The translations under genes and the position numbers were made by a program. Below, in pieces: positions 2,095-20,137 of a stretch of DNA of 42,881 bases (position 1 is its first letter; each line of letters starts with the position of its first letter). Source of the stretch: an uncultured Gammaproteobacteria bacterium (lineage in GTDB: Bacteria > Pseudomonadota > Gammaproteobacteria > Arenicellales > JAANXG01). Where the stretch lies: NCBI GenBank assembly GCA_945787105.1, contig CALZGZ010000100.1:1-42881 (forward strand). The letters are read 5' to 3'. The notes beneath the pieces were generated by a model. That model saw nothing but the letters and a program-made list of their open reading frames with translations. It was not told the DNA's origin and searched no databases.

Positions 2095-5000
2095 ATGAAC
2101 CAAGTAGACAGTCGAACACTTTTTAAGGTGAAACAAATCACGTTGGGGATCGTCCTGGGTGCTGTCGCAGCGGCACCGATCCTGGCGGATGACACCGAAA
2201 TATTCGTCGGCTTGGCTGGCAACCAGACGTCCGCCAAGCCGAATGTGCTGTTCATCCTCGATACCTCGGGCAGCATGAGCACGCAAGTCACCCTGACCGA
2301 GTCCTATGACCCGAACGTGACCTATGCCGGCTCGTGTGACGCATCCCGCATCTACTGGGACGACGAGGGCGACACGCCGGAATGCGATGACGATGAGTGG
2401 TTCTATACCAGCCAATCGCGTTGTGCGGCGGCGGTCTCAGCGCTGAATGCCACACCCGGCTATTACACCGACCGCGTCGCACTTTGGGACGAAGATGAGT
2501 GGGATGAACTCGACGACGATGAGCATAACCCGACGCATGTGGAATGCAAGGCCGACCAGGGAGTGCATGGGCAAACCGCGGCCAGCGGCGCGACGTATAT
2601 CGGCGAAGACAACGACGGGCCCTGGACCAGCAACGTGGGCGACGCGGAAAGCTGGAATGACATAGGCGACGTGTATACCTTGTACAGTGCAAATTACCTC
2701 AACTGGTATCACAACCATCAAGTGACCCAGTTGGGGACGCGCATGGACATCGTGAAAAACGTCACCAAGGACCTGATCGATTCGGTGAGCGGCATCAACC
2801 TGGCGCTGATGCGATTTGATACCAATGGCACGCTGCCGGGTGGTGGCAGCGGCACCCCGGGCGGTGCGGTGGTGTATCCGATGACCGATATCGACGCGAC
2901 CGGCACGCGCACCGCCGCCAAGGCGGTGGTCGACACGTTTACCGCTACGAGCTGGACCCCGCTGGCGCAGACCTATTACGAATCCCTGCTCTACTGGCGC
3001 GGTCAAGCCGCCCTCCACGGCGTGGATTCCTACAACACTATCCAAAGCCATGCGGATACGTTGACCACAAATGGCCAGGACTATGTCAGTCCCATTGAGT
3101 TGTCCTGCGTCAAGAACTACACGGTGTTGTTGACCGACGGTTTGCCTACCCATGATCGCGATGACGACACCGCAATCAACTCGTTACTGGCGACCTCTTC
3201 GGTGATGACCGACAAAACCTGCGGTCACGGCAACAATACGAACCCGGTCGACAGCTGCTTGGATGAGCTCGCCGAATTCATGTACACCACCGACAACGCG
3301 ACCGCGTCGCTGGGCAACGATATCCAGGGCGAGCAGAAGGTCACCACCCATACCATCGGCTTCGCCGTCGACGACACGCTGCTGGATGCGGCCGCCGCGA
3401 AGGGCGGTGGCAACTCTTACTTCGTCACCGACACGACCGAACTGTCCGCGGTGTTGACCGAGATTATTACCGAAATTCTGGCGGTCAACAGCACGTTTAC
3501 CTCGGCCGCGGTGTCGGTCAATGCGTTCAACCGATTGACCCACAACAACGAACTGTATTTTACCGTGTTCAAGCCGGGCGCTCGTGCGCACTGGGACGGA
3601 AACGTCAAACGTTTTGCTCTCGGCTTAAAGACCGACGCCAATGGCAACCCCATCGATGCGGACGGTAACGGTGAGCCCGATCTCGACATTGTGGACGCCA
3701 ATGGTAATTCGGCCGTGGATGACAGTACCGGCTTGTTCAAAGACACGTCTGAAAGCGTGTATACGCCTGCGTTCGATGCGCCCGACGGCCAGGAGGTAGA
3801 GCTTGGCGGCATAGCCAGCCGTCTGTATGACCTTGTCCTCGGGCAGCACGTGGCCAACACCCGTAACGTCTATACCTACACGGGGACGGTGGCCGACTTG
3901 TCCAACGCGGTCAATCAAATGCATGAGGACAACGCAAATACCACCGCCAATCCGACCGGTGCATTGACCAAGACGATGTTCAATGCCGCTGCTATGAGCG
4001 ACGCGGACTTCCAGGATCTGATCCGCTGGAGCCGCGGCGTCGATCTCAAGGACGCAGATGAGGATGCGGATGTCACGGACGGTCGTCCGCGCATGGGCGG
4101 TATCCTGCACTCGAAACCGGTTATCGTGACCTACGGTGCCAATCCCAGCACCGGCGTTCAGGACAATACGCTGTTCGTGGTGACGAACGACGGCTACCTG
4201 CATGCGGTAACGACCAACGACCCAACCGGTAATGCCGATGCGCTGGAGTCGTTCGCATATGTGCCGGCAAACCATTTGAATGATTTGCGGACGATCTTTG
4301 ACAATAGTTCGTCACCCACACTCCACTACAATATCGATGGTGCGCTGGAAACTTGGATCAACGACGCCAATGGTGATGACAATATTGTCAACACCGATGG
4401 CAGTATCGACACTGGAGACCATGTGTACATCTATTTCTCGGAACGCCGCGGCGGCCGTGCTGTGCACGCGGTGGATGTGACCGACCGCGCCCATCCCGAG
4501 TTCTTGTGGCTGATCGACGGTGACGACGCGACTGGCACCGACCCATTTACCCGTCTTGGTCAATCTTGGTCCAAGCCGAAGCATCGCAAGATGCTGGTCG
4601 GTACCCAAATCAAAGACGTGGTGATCTTCGCCGGGGGTTACGACACCGGTCACGACTCAGCGGACACGTCGCGCTCCAACTCGATAACGCTGGGAAATGC
4701 GGTGTACATCGTCGATGCCGAAAACGGCAACCTGCTGTGGTGGGCGGGCCGACAGGAGACCGGTGGACCGGTGCCCAATCTGGATCTCAGTGATATGTAT
4801 CACAGCATCGCGGCGGACGTCACCGCTATCGACCACAACGGCGATACCCTGATCGATATGCTGTTCGTGGCCGATCTTGGCGGGCAAATCTGGCGTTTCG
4901 ACATCGATAATTCAACCACCGGGACGCTGGCCGACCGCGTGACAGGCGGCGTCATTGCCGATGTGCAAAAAAGCAACCAAGGCAGCGCCGCGCCGGGGGC

Positions 5001-5706
5001 TGCTGATAATCGCCGCTTCTACGATCCCATCGATGTCTCTGTGGCAGAGCCGGTGGATGATCAACCGTATTTGGCGCTGGCGGTTGGGTCGGGTTTCCGC
5101 GCCCACCCACTCAACACCACGGTCACGGAGCGATACTACTTGATCAAGGATACCAGTGTTGACGGCCCACCCACCGATGCGGATGGCGATATCACATACA
5201 CGAAGTTGTATGAAGACGACCTGTTGGATGTGACCGACGTGGTGACTCAGTCCCACTTCGACGGCTTGTCATCGAACCAGGAAGGCCATCTCGCCAAGGG
5301 TTGGTATGTCACCCTGGAGGGAGACGGCGAGAAAGCAGTGAGCGGCTCACTCACGCTCAATGGTGTGCTCATATTCACCACCTATACACCGGCCGAGGCG
5401 GGCCAGACCACCGAGGGTCAGGTATGTTCCCCGGCGCTCGGCACCGGAAAATTCTACGAGGTCAGGGTGCAGGACGGCCGTCCGGCAATCGACTTGGACG
5501 GTATCGGTGGTTTGAACGCCCTGACCAAGACCGACCGCTCGCGCACCTTGGGTCGGTCGGGGATACCCCCGCAACCGGTGACCGTGTTCCCGGATCTCAC
5601 CGGCGTGACAACCGGCACCATTGTAATCGGTAACGAATTCGTACCTCCGGACGTGAAAAATCCGTTTGTCCGTACCTTCTGGTATCAGCACAACGCGGTG
5701 GAATAG
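2095..5706 (+). CDS. pilY1: PilY1-like type IV pilus tip/assembly protein with VWA domain and C-terminal beta-propeller
   Basis: VWA MIDAS DTSGSMS; C-terminal DHNGDTLIDMLFVADLGGQIWRFDI Ca-binding/propeller motif; ATG at 2095 preceded by GGGAG. The upstream extension to 2035 lacks support. Confidence 0.92.
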   Translation: MNQVDSRTLFKVKQITLGIVLGAVAAAPILADDTEIFVGLAGNQTSAKPNVLFILDTSGSMSTQVTLTESYDPNVTYAGSCDASRIYWDDEGDTPECDDDEWFYTSQSRCAAAVSALNATPGYYTDRVALWDEDEWDELDDDEHNPTHVECKADQGVHGQTAASGATYIGEDNDGPWTSNVGDAESWNDIGDVYTLYSANYLNWYHNHQVTQLGTRMDIVKNVTKDLIDSVSGINLALMRFDTNGTLPGGGSGTPGGAVVYPMTDIDATGTRTAAKAVVDTFTATSWTPLAQTYYESLLYWRGQAALHGVDSYNTIQSHADTLTTNGQDYVSPIELSCVKNYTVLLTDGLPTHDRDDDTAINSLLATSSVMTDKTCGHGNNTNPVDSCLDELAEFMYTTDNATASLGNDIQGEQKVTTHTIGFAVDDTLLDAAAAKGGGNSYFVTDTTELSAVLTEIITEILAVNSTFTSAAVSVNAFNRLTHNNELYFTVFKPGARAHWDGNVKRFALGLKTDANGNPIDADGNGEPDLDIVDANGNSAVDDSTGLFKDTSESVYTPAFDAPDGQEVELGGIASRLYDLVLGQHVANTRNVYTYTGTVADLSNAVNQMHEDNANTTANPTGALTKTMFNAAAMSDADFQDLIRWSRGVDLKDADEDADVTDGRPRMGGILHSKPVIVTYGANPSTGVQDNTLFVVTNDGYLHAVTTNDPTGNADALESFAYVPANHLNDLRTIFDNSSSPTLHYNIDGALETWINDANGDDNIVNTDGSIDTGDHVYIYFSERRGGRAVHAVDVTDRAHPEFLWLIDGDDATGTDPFTRLGQSWSKPKHRKMLVGTQIKDVVIFAGGYDTGHDSADTSRSNSITLGNAVYIVDAENGNLLWWAGRQETGGPVPNLDLSDMYHSIAADVTAIDHNGDTLIDMLFVADLGGQIWRFDIDNSTTGTLADRVTGGVIADVQKSNQGSAAPGAADNRRFYDPIDVSVAEPVDDQPYLALAVGSGFRAHPLNTTVTERYYLIKDTSVDGPPTDADGDITYTKLYEDDLLDVTDVVTQSHFDGLSSNQEGHLAKGWYVTLEGDGEKAVSGSLTLNGVLIFTTYTPAEAGQTTEGQVCSPALGTGKFYEVRVQDGRPAIDLDGIGGLNALTKTDRSRTLGRSGIPPQPVTVFPDLTGVTTGTIVIGNEFVPPDVKNPFVRTFWYQHNAVE

Positions 5707-12189: not shown

Positions 12190-12858
12190 ATGTTATCAAT
12201 TGGAGCGACAATGCTGGCCACGGCTGGCGTAGCCGGTGCTGCGTCATTGTGGTTGGTACAGCGTAATCATAACGCCAAGAAACGCATACCGCATTTCCGG
12301 GGGACGAAGTCTTTACTGGGTCCCCAGAAGCGGGCCTTTTACGCCGCGCTCATCCGTGCCGTGGGTCCACAGCCGTTGGTGTTTGCCCGTGTCAATCTCG
12401 CGTATCTCGTGCAACATCCCGGCGACGATCCTAACTATCAAGAGCACTGGCGTCGCGTTTGTCGTCGATGGTTAGATTTTGTGATATGCAGTCCGTCCTC
12501 AGTAAGTCCTATCTTGGCGATCAAACTGGAAACGCGTTTCGAGAGAAAGCGTCGGATGTTGGGCGGTATCGACGTGCTGGACGACACTCTAAGTAGTGCC
12601 CGCATCCCTCTTCTCAGAGTATCGTTGGCGGATCAGTATGAACCCACGGAATTAATGGAAAAGATAAAATGGGTGTTGATTGGCGAAAAACAGAAGTCGG
12701 ATAGCGAGCTTTTCGAGACCAAAGAGATCGCAGACGAAAGACCAGATTTGCCCTTTATCGTTGAATTTGCTCGCAAGCGGTTGCCAACTTTGAGTCGTTG
12801 GACCTCCGAGTTAAGAACCGTTACCACCGTTTTTGCCCGCTCAGTCACGCGCCATTAA
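12190..12858 (+). CDS. Membrane-anchored DUF2726-like protein, paralog 1
   Basis: N-terminal hydrophobic segment; core LLGPQKRAFYAALIRAV...RVNLAYLV...WLDFVICSPSSVSPILAIKLETR...LDDTLSSARIPLLRV resembles DUF2726. Confidence 0.75.
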   Translation: MLSIGATMLATAGVAGAASLWLVQRNHNAKKRIPHFRGTKSLLGPQKRAFYAALIRAVGPQPLVFARVNLAYLVQHPGDDPNYQEHWRRVCRRWLDFVICSPSSVSPILAIKLETRFERKRRMLGGIDVLDDTLSSARIPLLRVSLADQYEPTELMEKIKWVLIGEKQKSDSELFETKEIADERPDLPFIVEFARKRLPTLSRWTSELRTVTTVFARSVTRH

Positions 12859-13169: not shown

Positions 13170-13817
13170 ATGTCCTTTCCTGAGTTGATATTTTATGTAG
13201 TAATCGCCGCAGCGATAGGCACGTTGTTGTTGCTGTTCTGGCGTCATTACCGGCAGCAGAGGGGGTTCCTCGAATTTGAACGGCAACGCTCGCTGCTAAG
13301 CCCGCAGCAACGCGCCCTGTACCAGGAACTGATTAAGCTAGTGGGGGCAAATTCGGTGGTCTTGCCGAGAGTCAACTTGTCTGCACTGGTAAAGCCCCCC
13401 GGAGATCATCCCAGTTATGAAAACCACTGGAAACGTGTGCTACGCGAATGGGTGGATTTTGTCGTCTGTAGTCCTTCGAGTATCAGTCCGGTACTCGCGA
13501 TTAAGTTAGAGACGCGGGTGGAGAGAAAGCGACGCAAGTTGGGTGGCCTCGATGTCTTGGAAGATACGTTGACAAGTGCAAGGATACCTTTGTTGCGGAT
13601 TAAAAGTGCCGACAGTTATGATGCTAACGAGATCATGTCGAGCATAAGGTTTAGTCTGGTAAATCAAAAACGCAAAAAAGATGACGAGCTGTTTGTTACA
13701 GAGGAATTCTCGAACTTGTCTGCCGGTGAGCATTTGCAGCCAGATTCGATGTCCACGTTGAAGCGACGAACGTTAGGTTTTGTGTCCAACCTCAAGGGAT
13801 TTGGACGCGCCACCTGA
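13170..13817 (+). CDS. Membrane-anchored DUF2726-like protein, paralog 2
   Basis: N-terminal TM (IFYVVIAAAIGTLLLLFW); core highly similar to the 12190..12858 product (VDFVVCSPSSISPVLAIKLETRVERKRRKLGGLDVLEDTLTSARIPLLRI). Confidence 0.78.
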   Translation: MSFPELIFYVVIAAAIGTLLLLFWRHYRQQRGFLEFERQRSLLSPQQRALYQELIKLVGANSVVLPRVNLSALVKPPGDHPSYENHWKRVLREWVDFVVCSPSSISPVLAIKLETRVERKRRKLGGLDVLEDTLTSARIPLLRIKSADSYDANEIMSSIRFSLVNQKRKKDDELFVTEEFSNLSAGEHLQPDSMSTLKRRTLGFVSNLKGFGRAT

Positions 13818-15056: not shown

Positions 15057-15602
15057 ATGACATCCGAACCCGGTGATACGCGCCGGCTTGGACGGCTCAT
15101 GGTGATTGCCGCATGGGTATTGCTGGCGGGACTGCTGACGATGGTATTTTCAAAGGTGCTCGAGCGTCAGCACAATCCCAACCAGCAAGTTCAGATCAAT
15201 CCTGGCAACAACGGTTTCAGGGAAATCGTGCTGCAAAGAAACCGTCTTGGTCATTATGTTGCTACGGGAAAGATCAACGGAACCGAAGTGGAGTTCTTGT
15301 TGGATACCGGTGCGACCAACGTCGCGATTCCACAGCAGGTGGCTACCAACCTCGGACTCAAGCGTGGTGTGCCGTTGGCGACCTACACGGCCAATGGAAT
15401 CGTGCAAACATACGCCACGACGTTAGATTATGTAACGTTGGGCAGTATTTCTGCGACTGGAGTTTCCGCCAATATCAACCCCCATATGACTGGGAATCAG
15501 ATCTTGCTTGGCATGAGTTTTCTAAAACAATTCGAACTGCTGCAGCGGGGCGATCAGCTTACCATTCGATCAGGCAAAATGAGCCACACAGGTCCTCCCT
15601 AG
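15057..15602 (+). CDS. Retropepsin-like (clan AA) aspartic protease with N-terminal TM
   Basis: TM AAWVLLAGLLTMVFS; VEFLLDTGATNVAIPQQVA catalytic motif; GMSFLKQFELLQRGDQLTI. GTG 15042 is an alternative start. Confidence 0.87.
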   Translation: MTSEPGDTRRLGRLMVIAAWVLLAGLLTMVFSKVLERQHNPNQQVQINPGNNGFREIVLQRNRLGHYVATGKINGTEVEFLLDTGATNVAIPQQVATNLGLKRGVPLATYTANGIVQTYATTLDYVTLGSISATGVSANINPHMTGNQILLGMSFLKQFELLQRGDQLTIRSGKMSHTGPP

Positions 15603-15639
15603 ACCGCATAGCGCACCAAGGTGTCCTGCCTCTATTGGT

Positions 15640-15925
15640 GCCAAGCAAACTGGAGAATTGAACGTTACCATTTCATGGAAGAGAAGCTGCGGGTCTCCCC
15701 GGTGTATAGCCGAGCATAGGGACGGGGCTACCCCGGCGCTGGCTTGGCCGCGAGCGCCGGGACTGGCGTTTCCCGCTACCCATAGCCCGCTATGGGTTTT
15801 GCTCCAGCGCAAAGCCCAGCCGCCTGATCCTGCGCTCGTCCCCGTCTTGTCCCCGCACAGCAGGGGAAACAGCAGGGGGCCCAGCTTGCGCGAGTCCTGC
15901 GCCAGCATCCGGGATCTTGGTGAGA
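15640..15925. repeat. Dispersed non-coding repeat, copy A
   Basis: Shares blocks with 33455-33725: gccaagca..ctggagaat.gaa...ccatttcatggaa.aga..ctgcgg.tct; ccggcgctggct.gg.cgcga.cgccggg; cccgc.cagcaggggaa.cagcagggg. Confidence 0.75.
15778..15797. other. Perfect inverted repeat acccatag-cccg-ctatgggt
   Basis: 8-bp arms, 4-nt spacer, followed by ttt; lies inside repeat copy A. Confidence 0.7.
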
Positions 15926-15948
15926 AATACGGGCTAACGCCGGCGTCA

Positions 15949-15986
15949 TTCAGCTTATATTCAGCTTGAATTCAGGCCCGGTTCAG
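15949..15986 (+). promoter_or_regulatory. Four phased TTCAG direct repeats (candidate response-regulator operator)
   Basis: TTCAG at 15949, 15960, 15971 and 15982, each offset by exactly 11 bp; ~84 bp upstream of ATG 16070. Confidence 0.75.
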
Positions 15987-16069
15987 TAGCGCCTACGTAA
16001 GCTATCGCGTACTGGAAAAGATCGACATTCACAGGGTGTGCCGTCAATCTCAATTCGAACGGTCTGAAA

Positions 16070-16606
16070 ATGAAACGTATGGTTTTGTTCGTTGTCTCAG
16101 TGGCGATTACTTTAGTGGCTGCATCACCCGTGCTTGCCGGAAAACGATACGATCCAGCCTTATATGACTACGCAGATGTGATCGAGGTTAAACCCATTAT
16201 CGAACTCGTACGCGTGGATTCCCCCCGTCAAGAGTGTTGGACCGAGACCCATACCCGTTATCGATATAGCGGTGGTCATAATAGCTATACGCCTGAAATC
16301 TTCGGTGCCATTGTCGGGGCGGCTGTTGGCAACCAATTTGGGCGTGGCCGCGGTAGGGAGCTTGCAACCGCTGCTGGCGCGGTGTTGGGCGGTTCGATTG
16401 GCCACGACGTCAAGCGACGCCGTCATCGCTATGCTTATAATGAACCGGTAGAACGTTGTGAGACCCACCATGAATTCCACGAACAAGAGCATGTTGTGGG
16501 TTATAAAGTGAAGTATCGTTATGGTGATAGGATCTATCATTCGCGTACCGGCCATGACCCGGGGCACCGCATTCGTGTGCGCGTTCACGTCGCGCCGGCG
16601 GAGTAA
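16070..16606 (+). CDS. Glycine-zipper 2TM domain surface-antigen-like protein
   Basis: Signal peptide; EIFGAIVGAAVGNQFGRGRGRELATAAGAVLGGSIGHDV glycine zipper. Confidence 0.88.
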   Translation: MKRMVLFVVSVAITLVAASPVLAGKRYDPALYDYADVIEVKPIIELVRVDSPRQECWTETHTRYRYSGGHNSYTPEIFGAIVGAAVGNQFGRGRGRELATAAGAVLGGSIGHDVKRRRHRYAYNEPVERCETHHEFHEQEHVVGYKVKYRYGDRIYHSRTGHDPGHRIRVRVHVAPAE

Positions 16607-16673
16607 GTAGATAGTTGCATCCGGTGTGTATAATGCAGCCAGCGCTGCGCATCCTGTCCCGCGGCTGGCTTTT

Positions 16674-16928
16674 ATGATGCGACTAATCGGATCCATTTTG
16701 TTGCTTGTCACGTTTTGTTTGCCGATTGCGGTATATCCGATATCGCCTGAAAACCAGGAGCCGATCAGCCTCGACCAAGCTGCCTCTATTGCGAAAAGCC
16801 GCACCGGTGGCAGGGTGTTATCGGCCGAAAAACGTGAAGTGGATGGCCGGTTGCTGTATCGAATCAAGATCCTCACTCCGAAAGGGCGGGTTCGGAGCAT
16901 ATACATCGATCCGCAGAAACAGCAGTGA
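16674..16928 (+). CDS. PepSY-domain periplasmic protein
   Basis: Signal peptide; ISLDQAASIAKSRTGGRVLSAEKREVDGRLLYRIKILTPKGRVRSIYIDP. Confidence 0.85.
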   Translation: MMRLIGSILLLVTFCLPIAVYPISPENQEPISLDQAASIAKSRTGGRVLSAEKREVDGRLLYRIKILTPKGRVRSIYIDPQKQQ

Positions 16929-16950
16929 TCATCTCATCAGAGTTAGCTCA

Positions 16951-17631
16951 ATGCGCGTGCTCGTAGTTGAGGATGAGGCCGGAATCCGGGAGCAACTTGC
17001 GGCGCGTCTGCGCGAGGAAGGGTTTGCCGTGGATACGGCGTCCGATGGCGAGGAGGGATTGTACTTCGGGAGGGAATATCCCGTGGATCTCGCCATCGTG
17101 GATATCGGTTTACCAAAACTGAACGGAATACACCTGACCCAACAGTTGCGAGCTGAAGGGCGAAGCTTTCCTATATTGATACTAACTGCTCGGTCGCGTT
17201 GGCAAGAGAAGGTCGACGGGTTGGAAGCCGGTGCTGATGATTACCTTGTGAAGCCATTCCATGTAGAGGAGTTGTTGGCCAGGGTTCGTGCGTTACTGCG
17301 ACGTACCGCGGGATCAGCACAATCCACAATTGAATGTGGACCGGTGACCTTGAATACCTCTACGCAGGAAGTGTCTGTTGATGGCTCACCATTGACTCTA
17401 ACAGCTTATGAATACCGCTTGTTGCAGTACTTGATGTTTAATTCCGGTAAGGTGGTTTCCAAGGCCGAACTAACCGACCACATATACGAAGAGGATAGTG
17501 ACCGCGATAGCAACGTCATCGAAGTTTTTATCGGCCGCCTGCGCAAAAAAATCGACCCGGACAATCTGATCAAGCCCATTGAGACTCTTCGTGGTCGGGG
17601 CTATCGTTTCAAACTCGCGCGCACGTCGTGA
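16951..17631 (+). CDS. OmpR/PhoP-family response regulator
   Basis: MRVLVVEDEAGIREQLAARL, IVDIGLPKLNGI, KPFHVEELLARVRALLRR; C-terminal winged helix NVIEVFIGRLRKKI...RGRGYRF. Confidence 0.96.
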   Translation: MRVLVVEDEAGIREQLAARLREEGFAVDTASDGEEGLYFGREYPVDLAIVDIGLPKLNGIHLTQQLRAEGRSFPILILTARSRWQEKVDGLEAGADDYLVKPFHVEELLARVRALLRRTAGSAQSTIECGPVTLNTSTQEVSVDGSPLTLTAYEYRLLQYLMFNSGKVVSKAELTDHIYEEDSDRDSNVIEVFIGRLRKKIDPDNLIKPIETLRGRGYRFKLARTS

Positions 17632-18983
17632 CACTCTCCCTTAACAGCCGGTTATTGCTGGCTGCCAGTGTGGCATCAGTTGCCTTCCTGGGCGTCACTG
17701 GGTGGGTGCTAGACAAGGCGTTTCAAAATAGCGCTGAGACCGCGGTTCGCAACCATTTGCAAGGTCAACTTTATGGGTTACTTGCCGCGTTCGATATCGA
17801 CGGCAGTGGGCGCCTAATTGTGCCGACGAATCTGCCGGAGGCACGATTCTCGCGCATTAATTCCGGACTATACGCCCGGGTGGTGGACCGAGAGTCGAAC
17901 GTGGTTTGGCGTTCCGACTCTTTATTGGGTAGAACTCTTCCTGTAGGTGGGCGGTTAGCGTCTGGCGACTCATTGTTCGAACAAATCACTACTCGACCCG
18001 GTATCGAGTTGTTTTGGTTGAGATTCGGGGTTGCATGGGAAATTGACGATCCAGTATCGGTTGACTATGAATTTACCGTTGCCGAAGACCTGACAAACTA
18101 TAATGCTCAAGTGGAAAGTTTTCGCCGCAGTCTGTGGATTTGGCTTGGGGGGGCGGTGGTCGTGTTATTGTTGGTGCAGACTGTCGTACTAAGGTGGAGC
18201 CTGACGCCATTACGACACGTAGCGGCGGAAGTGGCGGCGGTAGAACGGGGTGAGTTGTCCCAGTTGGCAGGTGAGTATCCCCGCGAGTTATCCGGCTTGA
18301 CGCGCAATATCAATGCCTTCATCACCAATGAGCGCCGTCAGATAGAACGATACCGCAATACGCTGGGCGATCTCGCCCATAGTCTAAAAACACCGCTGGC
18401 AGTAATCCAGGGTGCGATGGAAGCCAAGCAGCCGGTCAATCCGGCTGAGGTTGCCGCCCAAGTGGACCGGATGTCGGAAATAGTCGATTATCAACTTCGG
18501 CGTGCCGCGGCGGTGGGTAAGCGCACTTTGACGGCGCCGGTATCGGTATCAGCGAGCGTCAAAAAAGTGGTTAACTCGCTACGTAAGGTTTACGCCAATC
18601 GGGATATTCAAGTGAACCAAGACATTCGCCCGGGGTTGAAATTCTACGGCGATCAGGGCGATCTTTTCGAAGTACTAGGGAACCTCATCGATAACGCTTT
18701 CAAATGGAGCCGTGGACAGGTCATTGTTCGCGCCGAGCCGATCATGGAGCAGAAGCACCGCTCCGGCGTGCGATTGTTTATTATCGATGATGGGCCGGGT
18801 ATCGACGAGTCTCTACGCGAGCAAGTATTGAAGCGGGGTGTACGGTCGAACGGCCGAGCCGCGGGACAAGGTCTCGGCTTGGCGTCGGTGCAAGACATTG
18901 TTGAGGCATATGGTGGCATGTTGCGTCTCGCCTCGGACAATGGCCGCGGTACGGAAGCGGTGGTCGAGTTCCCTGCGGGCTAA
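17628..18983 (+). CDS. PhoQ-like sensor histidine kinase
   Basis: Two TMs flanking a sensor region; H-box LGDLAHSLKTPLAVIQGA, N-box GNLIDNAFKWS, G-boxes DDGPGI / GQGLGLASVQDI; GTGA overlap with the RR gene. Confidence 0.95.
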   Translation: MTLSLNSRLLLAASVASVAFLGVTGWVLDKAFQNSAETAVRNHLQGQLYGLLAAFDIDGSGRLIVPTNLPEARFSRINSGLYARVVDRESNVVWRSDSLLGRTLPVGGRLASGDSLFEQITTRPGIELFWLRFGVAWEIDDPVSVDYEFTVAEDLTNYNAQVESFRRSLWIWLGGAVVVLLLVQTVVLRWSLTPLRHVAAEVAAVERGELSQLAGEYPRELSGLTRNINAFITNERRQIERYRNTLGDLAHSLKTPLAVIQGAMEAKQPVNPAEVAAQVDRMSEIVDYQLRRAAAVGKRTLTAPVSVSASVKKVVNSLRKVYANRDIQVNQDIRPGLKFYGDQGDLFEVLGNLIDNAFKWSRGQVIVRAEPIMEQKHRSGVRLFIIDDGPGIDESLREQVLKRGVRSNGRAAGQGLGLASVQDIVEAYGGMLRLASDNGRGTEAVVEFPAG

Positions 18984-20121: not shown

Positions 20122-20137
20122 TTCAGCTTGCCTTCAG
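20122..20137 (+). promoter_or_regulatory. Two phased TTCAG direct repeats (candidate operator)
   Basis: TTCAGCTTGCCTTCAGCT: TTCAG at 20122 and 20133, 11-bp offset, 29 bp before ATG 20166. Confidence 0.6.

Follow-up and report, generated by a model that had tools for sequence, protein, structure and literature searches.

The window analysed here is the whole 42,881-nucleotide stretch of contig CALZGZ010000100.1 from an uncultured gammaproteobacterium. Within it, an array of short direct repeats precedes four genes of the same strand, in the order glycine-zipper protein, PepSY protein, response regulator and sensor kinase. The features are listed below with the evidence for each.

15949..15986, forward strand: predicted operator, four RTTCAG half-sites at an 11-bp phase (sequence, shuffles, conservation upstream of orthologues)
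15998..16003, forward strand: predicted -10 box TAAGCT, 11 nt past the last TTCAG (TANNNT at this offset in 32/45 loci)
16070..16606, forward strand: exported protein of 178 aa with a glycine zipper, encoded by the first operon gene (hits above cut-off to Pfam PF05433 and NCBIfam NF008437)
16677..16928, forward strand: small exported PepSY protein of 83 aa, resembling DbfQ in position and domain (Pfam PF03413)
16951..17631, forward strand: PhoP-type response regulator, 226 aa, predicted binder of the operator (domain and family models, reciprocal best hits, tree)
17628..18983, forward strand: PhoQ-type sensor histidine kinase, 451 aa (family models, full-length PhoQ alignment)

A GC-rich dispersed repeat (15685–15925) lies between an upstream aspartic-protease gene and the operator. 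Farther upstream, two ORFs of 222 and 215 aa (12190–12858 and 13170–13817) encode proteins that are clearly similar by eye and likely represent a tandem duplication.

The array reads TTCAGCTTATATTCAGCTTGAATTCAGGCCCGGTTCAG. TTCAG starts at positions 15949, 15960, 15971 and 15982, at a spacing of exactly 11 bp, and is preceded by A, A, A and G, respectively, so the half-site can be refined to RTTCAG with a gap of 5 bp. Direct RTTCAG repeats of this period are those of the Pseudomonas-type PhoP box. Dinucleotide shuffles of the window gave a mean of 0.07 TTCAG-N6-TTCAG dyads versus 4 found; the four-site array (expectation 0.00) occurred in 0 of 100 shuffles, even when three mismatches were allowed. 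In the 4.8-Mb genome, 14 dyads were found versus 1 for the reversed control, and the three-site pattern TTCAG-N6-TTCAG-N6-TTCAG occurred 4 times versus 0 for its reverse. The original prediction of four TTCAG sites in exact 11-bp phase is thus borne out by the sequence and by the shuffles, and in the shuffles, the genome scan and the pair count described below the motif is far more frequent than expected at random. The fourth dyad of the window (20122–20137), located before a quinone-oxidoreductase-like gene, was rejected as an additional target; it is not kept in five relatives and is therefore probably due to chance.

The regulator contains a receiver domain and a Trans_reg_C domain, and many OmpR-family paralogues are encoded in the same genome. 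It forms a reciprocal best hit with PhoP of P. aeruginosa PA7 (54–55% identity), the next-best matches being 48% within PA7 and 43% within its own genome; together with the tree, this indicates orthology to PhoP. The best NCBIfam model was likewise PhoP (231 bits, cut-off 336), and the kinase scored 197 bits against the PhoQ model (cut-off 497). Since both scores fall below the cut-offs of these equivalog models, which are enteric, the proteins are named PhoP-type and PhoQ-type here and not enteric equivalogs. The kinase can be aligned over its whole length with PA7 PhoQ (32% identity). A model of its sensor domain gave weak PAS-like matches in the PDB, PhoQ among them, none below an E value of 0.001.

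The glycine-zipper protein is not SlyB by family, and the position of its gene is kept in many orthologues. In enteric bacteria, PhoP has as its conserved core targets phoPQ and slyB, a lipoprotein gene whose action lowers PhoP activity (PMC2650801), and slyB is a direct PhoP target in P. aeruginosa too (PMC7916210). By analogy, the glycine-zipper gene may have a feedback or repair role comparable to that of slyB. At loci L007 and L008, extra ORFs between the PepSY and regulator genes were discarded as likely spurious, the one at L007 looking repeat-derived. At this last locus (genome G004), a repeat similar to that of the window seems to be placed between the PepSY and regulator genes.

Orthologous regulators were taken from relatives and from named genomes. 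The four-site array is kept in 6 of 6 congeneric orthologues, counting the window, in one case with one mismatched base in the first site. For an unbiased count, every repeated 5-mer was combined with spacers of 0 to 15 (16,384 combinations) and searched in the upstream regions (at most 1.5 kb) of 50 orthologues that were mutually less than 80% identical. TTCAG-N6-TTCAG was by far the commonest pair (31 of 50 non-redundant loci); the best unrelated pair reached 8 loci, and the mean over all pairs was 0.15. The runners-up, GTTCA and ATTCA with spacer 6, are the same motif in a shifted register, and TTCAG at any other spacer occurred in at most 2 loci. Where the exact dyad is missing, most orthologues show a dyad with one mismatch, and a few have none. 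No exact dyad was found upstream of the non-orthologous regulators (42% identical or less, loci L120 onward). The motif is therefore conserved before orthologous loci across Gammaproteobacteria; the half-sites and the -10 are conserved, and the spacers vary. The box precedes whichever gene comes first, be it the glycine-zipper gene, the PepSY gene alone or oprH, as in P. aeruginosa. In addition, when 274 genomes from the class were searched blindly for four-site arrays, 12 were found, with TANNNT at 10–11 nt in 10 of them. Several of these arrays precede PhoP operons, and the set includes OprH/PhoP and PepSY-containing operons as well as small exported proteins.

The promoter geometry was analysed in 45 loci with an exact dyad. 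Of these, 32 have a TANNNT hexamer that starts exactly 11 nt past the last TTCAG and 6 have one at 10 nt; the base preceding the half-site is G in 66 cases, A in 49 and C in 4. In the window the offset is also 11, placing the box one helical turn above the -10, as in architecture I of Salmonella, with which it was compared. No sigma-70 -35/-10 pair was found between 15600 and 17000, and no -35 hexamer was seen there. Class II PhoP promoters of Salmonella have the same distance from box to -10 (PMC3335776); given that TTCAG reaches one base further in the 3′ direction than GTTTA, 11 nt here equal 12 nt there. By eye, the E. coli phoP promoter has the same geometry (GGTTTATTTAATGTTTACCCCCATAACCACATAAT). 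Accordingly placed, the -10 at 15998–16003 is predicted to belong to a putatively PhoP-controlled gene. In Salmonella, a second PhoP box upstream is stimulatory (PMC3335776).

The closest known counterpart is oprH-phoP-phoQ of P. aeruginosa. The published PhoP site of this species, GTTCAGNNNNNRTTCAG, was established by EMSA and by mutagenesis of the retS site (PMC3156716), and the ChIP-seq motif is G/ATTCAG (PMC7916210); binding of PhoP to an RTTCAG box is known only for this orthologue (PMC3156716, PMC7916210). The string TTCAG-N6-TTCAG was not found in the literature searched, where the motif is written GTTCAGNNNNNRTTCAG. In PA7, the oprH-phoP-phoQ locus (L106, as read from its ORFs) has four TTCAG sites at an 11-bp phase and TACTCT 11 nt below them. 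As a positive control, the pattern recovered oprH and a gene read as arnB in this genome, both ChIP-seq targets (PMC7916210). The two loci share the RTTCAG half-sites, the 11-bp phase, the four-site array, the distance of 11 nt to the -10, an orthologous regulator and a full-length PhoQ-like kinase, but the first gene is oprH in P. aeruginosa, whereas the glycine-zipper and PepSY genes occupy this place in the window. The enteric PhoP box of E. coli and Salmonella (PMC3335776) is similar in its direct repeats, phase, -10 distance, class II position and autoregulated phoPQ, and differs in its half-site, (T/G)GTTTA instead of RTTCAG.

The order PepSY–regulator–kinase, with a small exported PepSY protein encoded beside the regulator and kinase, corresponds to the DbfQRS module of V. 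cholerae, whose kinase is annotated as PhoQ (PMC12714742, PMC7768729). The dbfQRS operon is positively autoregulated by phosphorylated DbfR (PMC12714742) and responds to envelope damage (PMC12714742, PMC7768729). For V. cholerae only, it is shown that DbfQ, the PepSY protein, binds to the sensor of the kinase and favours its phosphatase activity (PMC12714742). DbfS, although annotated as PhoQ, was unresponsive to PhoQ ligands (PMC7768729), so Mg2+ should not be assumed as the signal here. The available text of the two papers mentions no glycine-zipper gene and describes no operator. No Vibrio was among the control genomes that matched in the PepSY search.

A further PepSY-associated system is BqsRS of P. 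aeruginosa (PMC4682146; locus L186), in which two PepSY genes lie upstream of a BqsR-like regulator and pentamer pairs with a 6-bp gap form clusters of four in one promoter (PMC4682146). It differs in its pentamer, TTAAG, and in its regulator, which falls outside the TTCAG clade. In PA7, a hybrid site of one TTCAG and one TTAAG (TTCAGCTTCAATTAAG) was noticed 695 nt upstream of the BqsR-like gene, before the two PepSY genes and this regulator. Cross-talk between PhoP and BqsR at the hybrid site is possible.

Based on the array, its spacing to the -10, the reciprocal best hit, the match with the PA7 promoter and the PhoQ alignment, we regard the repeats as the PhoP box array of a phoPQ operon. 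They almost certainly serve as the switch by which a PhoP/PhoQ-type envelope-sensing system activates itself, with a PhoP box of the Pseudomonas form. It is very probable that they represent two tandem RTTCAG boxes and that binding of the PhoP-like regulator to them leads to class II positive autoregulation of the four-gene operon. Points against this view are the scores of both proteins below the enteric cut-offs, the orthologues with inexact dyads or none, and the weakness of the PAS-like matches of the sensor domain. The original prediction regarded the array as the operator of the OmpR/PhoP-family regulator encoded about 1 kb downstream, which is supported by the binding of the orthologous P. 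aeruginosa PhoP to this sequence. The further proposal that it drives the envelope genes and perhaps also the operon of the regulator agrees with the conservation of the box before orthologous operons; most likely, the array acts on the glycine-zipper/PepSY/phoP/phoQ operon by class II positive autoregulation. Beyond these proposals, the present analysis identifies the repeats with a known non-enteric PhoP box and adds the -10 one turn downstream, the PhoQ-like kinase and the boxes before other genes.

Other explanations were weighed against this assignment. The genome is rich in OmpR-family paralogues, and the BqsR site is similar (TTAAG-N6-TTAAG, PMC4682146), so a BqsR- or QseB-like regulator of the same genome could act on the array from outside. 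We consider this very unlikely: the box tracks the phoP orthologue across the clade whichever gene is first, the reciprocal-best-hit orthologue reads exactly RTTCAG, and BqsR falls outside the TTCAG clade in the tree. Slimmer still is the chance that the operator is genuine but mainly represses the operon in a negative autoregulation. P. aeruginosa PhoP does repress retS, from a box downstream of the -10 and ahead of the start codon (PMC3156716), but here, as in most orthologues, the box lies upstream of the -10, in the position of a class II activator, and the interval 15600–17000 contains no -35 hexamer.

The dispersed repeat directly upstream (15685–15925, at least 47 matching places) might suggest that the array is a functionless tandem repeat, arisen by chance or derived from the repeat. 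However, relative G005, which lacks the repeat at the same spot, keeps the array, so the array is not part of the repeat. Moreover, the half-sites, at a fixed phase, and the -10 persist across orthologues with varying spacers, and the shuffles never produced the array. A chance repeat is ruled out by the shuffles and the conservation, and a functionless origin as a whole appears next to impossible.

For the preferred PhoP-dependent activation, we suggest the following mechanism. Two dimers of the phosphorylated PhoP-like regulator would bind in head-to-tail orientation along a single face of the helix. The dimer proximal to the promoter would cover the -35 region, a helical turn above the -10 at 15998, and recruit RNA polymerase in class II fashion; the distal dimer would strengthen the response. 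A single transcript would then encode all four proteins, from the glycine-zipper protein to PhoQ, resulting in positive autoregulation, and the exported proteins would likely feed back on the envelope or the kinase. The analysis itself shows the array and its conservation, the distance to the -10, the orthology and the order of the genes; from the orthologues and the layout of the locus we infer the binding, the activation, the boost by the distal pair, the single four-gene transcript and the feedback by exported proteins.

Boxes with a -10 at 10–11 nt that recur in congeners were also found on contigs C233, C298 and C287. The box on C233 (28682–28714) lies just after a ydbH-like gene and before ynbE-ydbL, as also at locus L160; the latter two genes match the Pfam YnbE-like lipoprotein and DUF1318 families. 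This arrangement suggests PhoP control of the ynbE-ydbL operon for outer-membrane lipid homeostasis. On C298, the box (3474–3517) precedes the gene of a small exported protein rich in Gly, His and Tyr. In several genera (loci L166, L167, L182 and L236), RTTCAG boxes are followed by a family of such proteins, rich in Gly, His, Arg and Tyr, which is likely an uncharacterised PhoP target. The C287 box precedes an efflux membrane-fusion adaptor gene adjoining an RND pump gene, as judged from their sequences. In addition, contig C378 has a three-site box (5316–5342) without a -10 at 10–11 nt, before a 172-aa exported protein; this box recurs in relatives. Exported His/Arg-rich proteins of 153–172 aa, probably helical, are encoded behind multi-site boxes in the genus (L055, L056), and similar ones were recognised by eye in class members that are only distantly related (L232, L237).

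In a tree of 50 regulators, which includes only two enteric sequences, the PhoP proteins of E. coli and Xenorhabdus fall within the TTCAG clade as the sister group of Pseudomonas PhoP (100/98); BqsR and an own-genome paralogue lie outside it. Every one of the 44 TTCAG-clade sequences that cover the recognition helix has N188 and E191 there, and both enteric sequences have H and D instead. The nested position of enteric PhoP and these helix residues suggest that the enteric GTTTA specificity is a derived one. This is a hypothesis only, because the enteric sequences are two, many branches lack resolution and one-mismatch boxes occur in the TTCAG group. Tentatively, and at somewhat less than an even chance, RTTCAG may be the ancestral gammaproteobacterial PhoP site, from which the enteric branch switched to GTTTA via N188→H, V189→T and E191→D (window numbering). 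The same joint reading, held with the same reserve, would have the phasing and the -10 distance kept. If it is true, the ancestral system would drive an envelope regulon comprising the glycine-zipper, PepSY and small His/Arg-rich exported proteins and ynbE-ydbL.

The RTTCAG motif itself is already known; the present analysis adds its breadth, the type of operon and the predicted regulon. A PhoPQ-like system of an organism other than the model pathogens is hereby given a regulator, its promoter geometry and a first regulon prediction, using only sequence, with the published binding data on an orthologue as backing. An operator is predicted for many PepSY–regulator–kinase modules, and the loci provide a comparative set for how enteric PhoP came to GTTTA rather than TTCAG.
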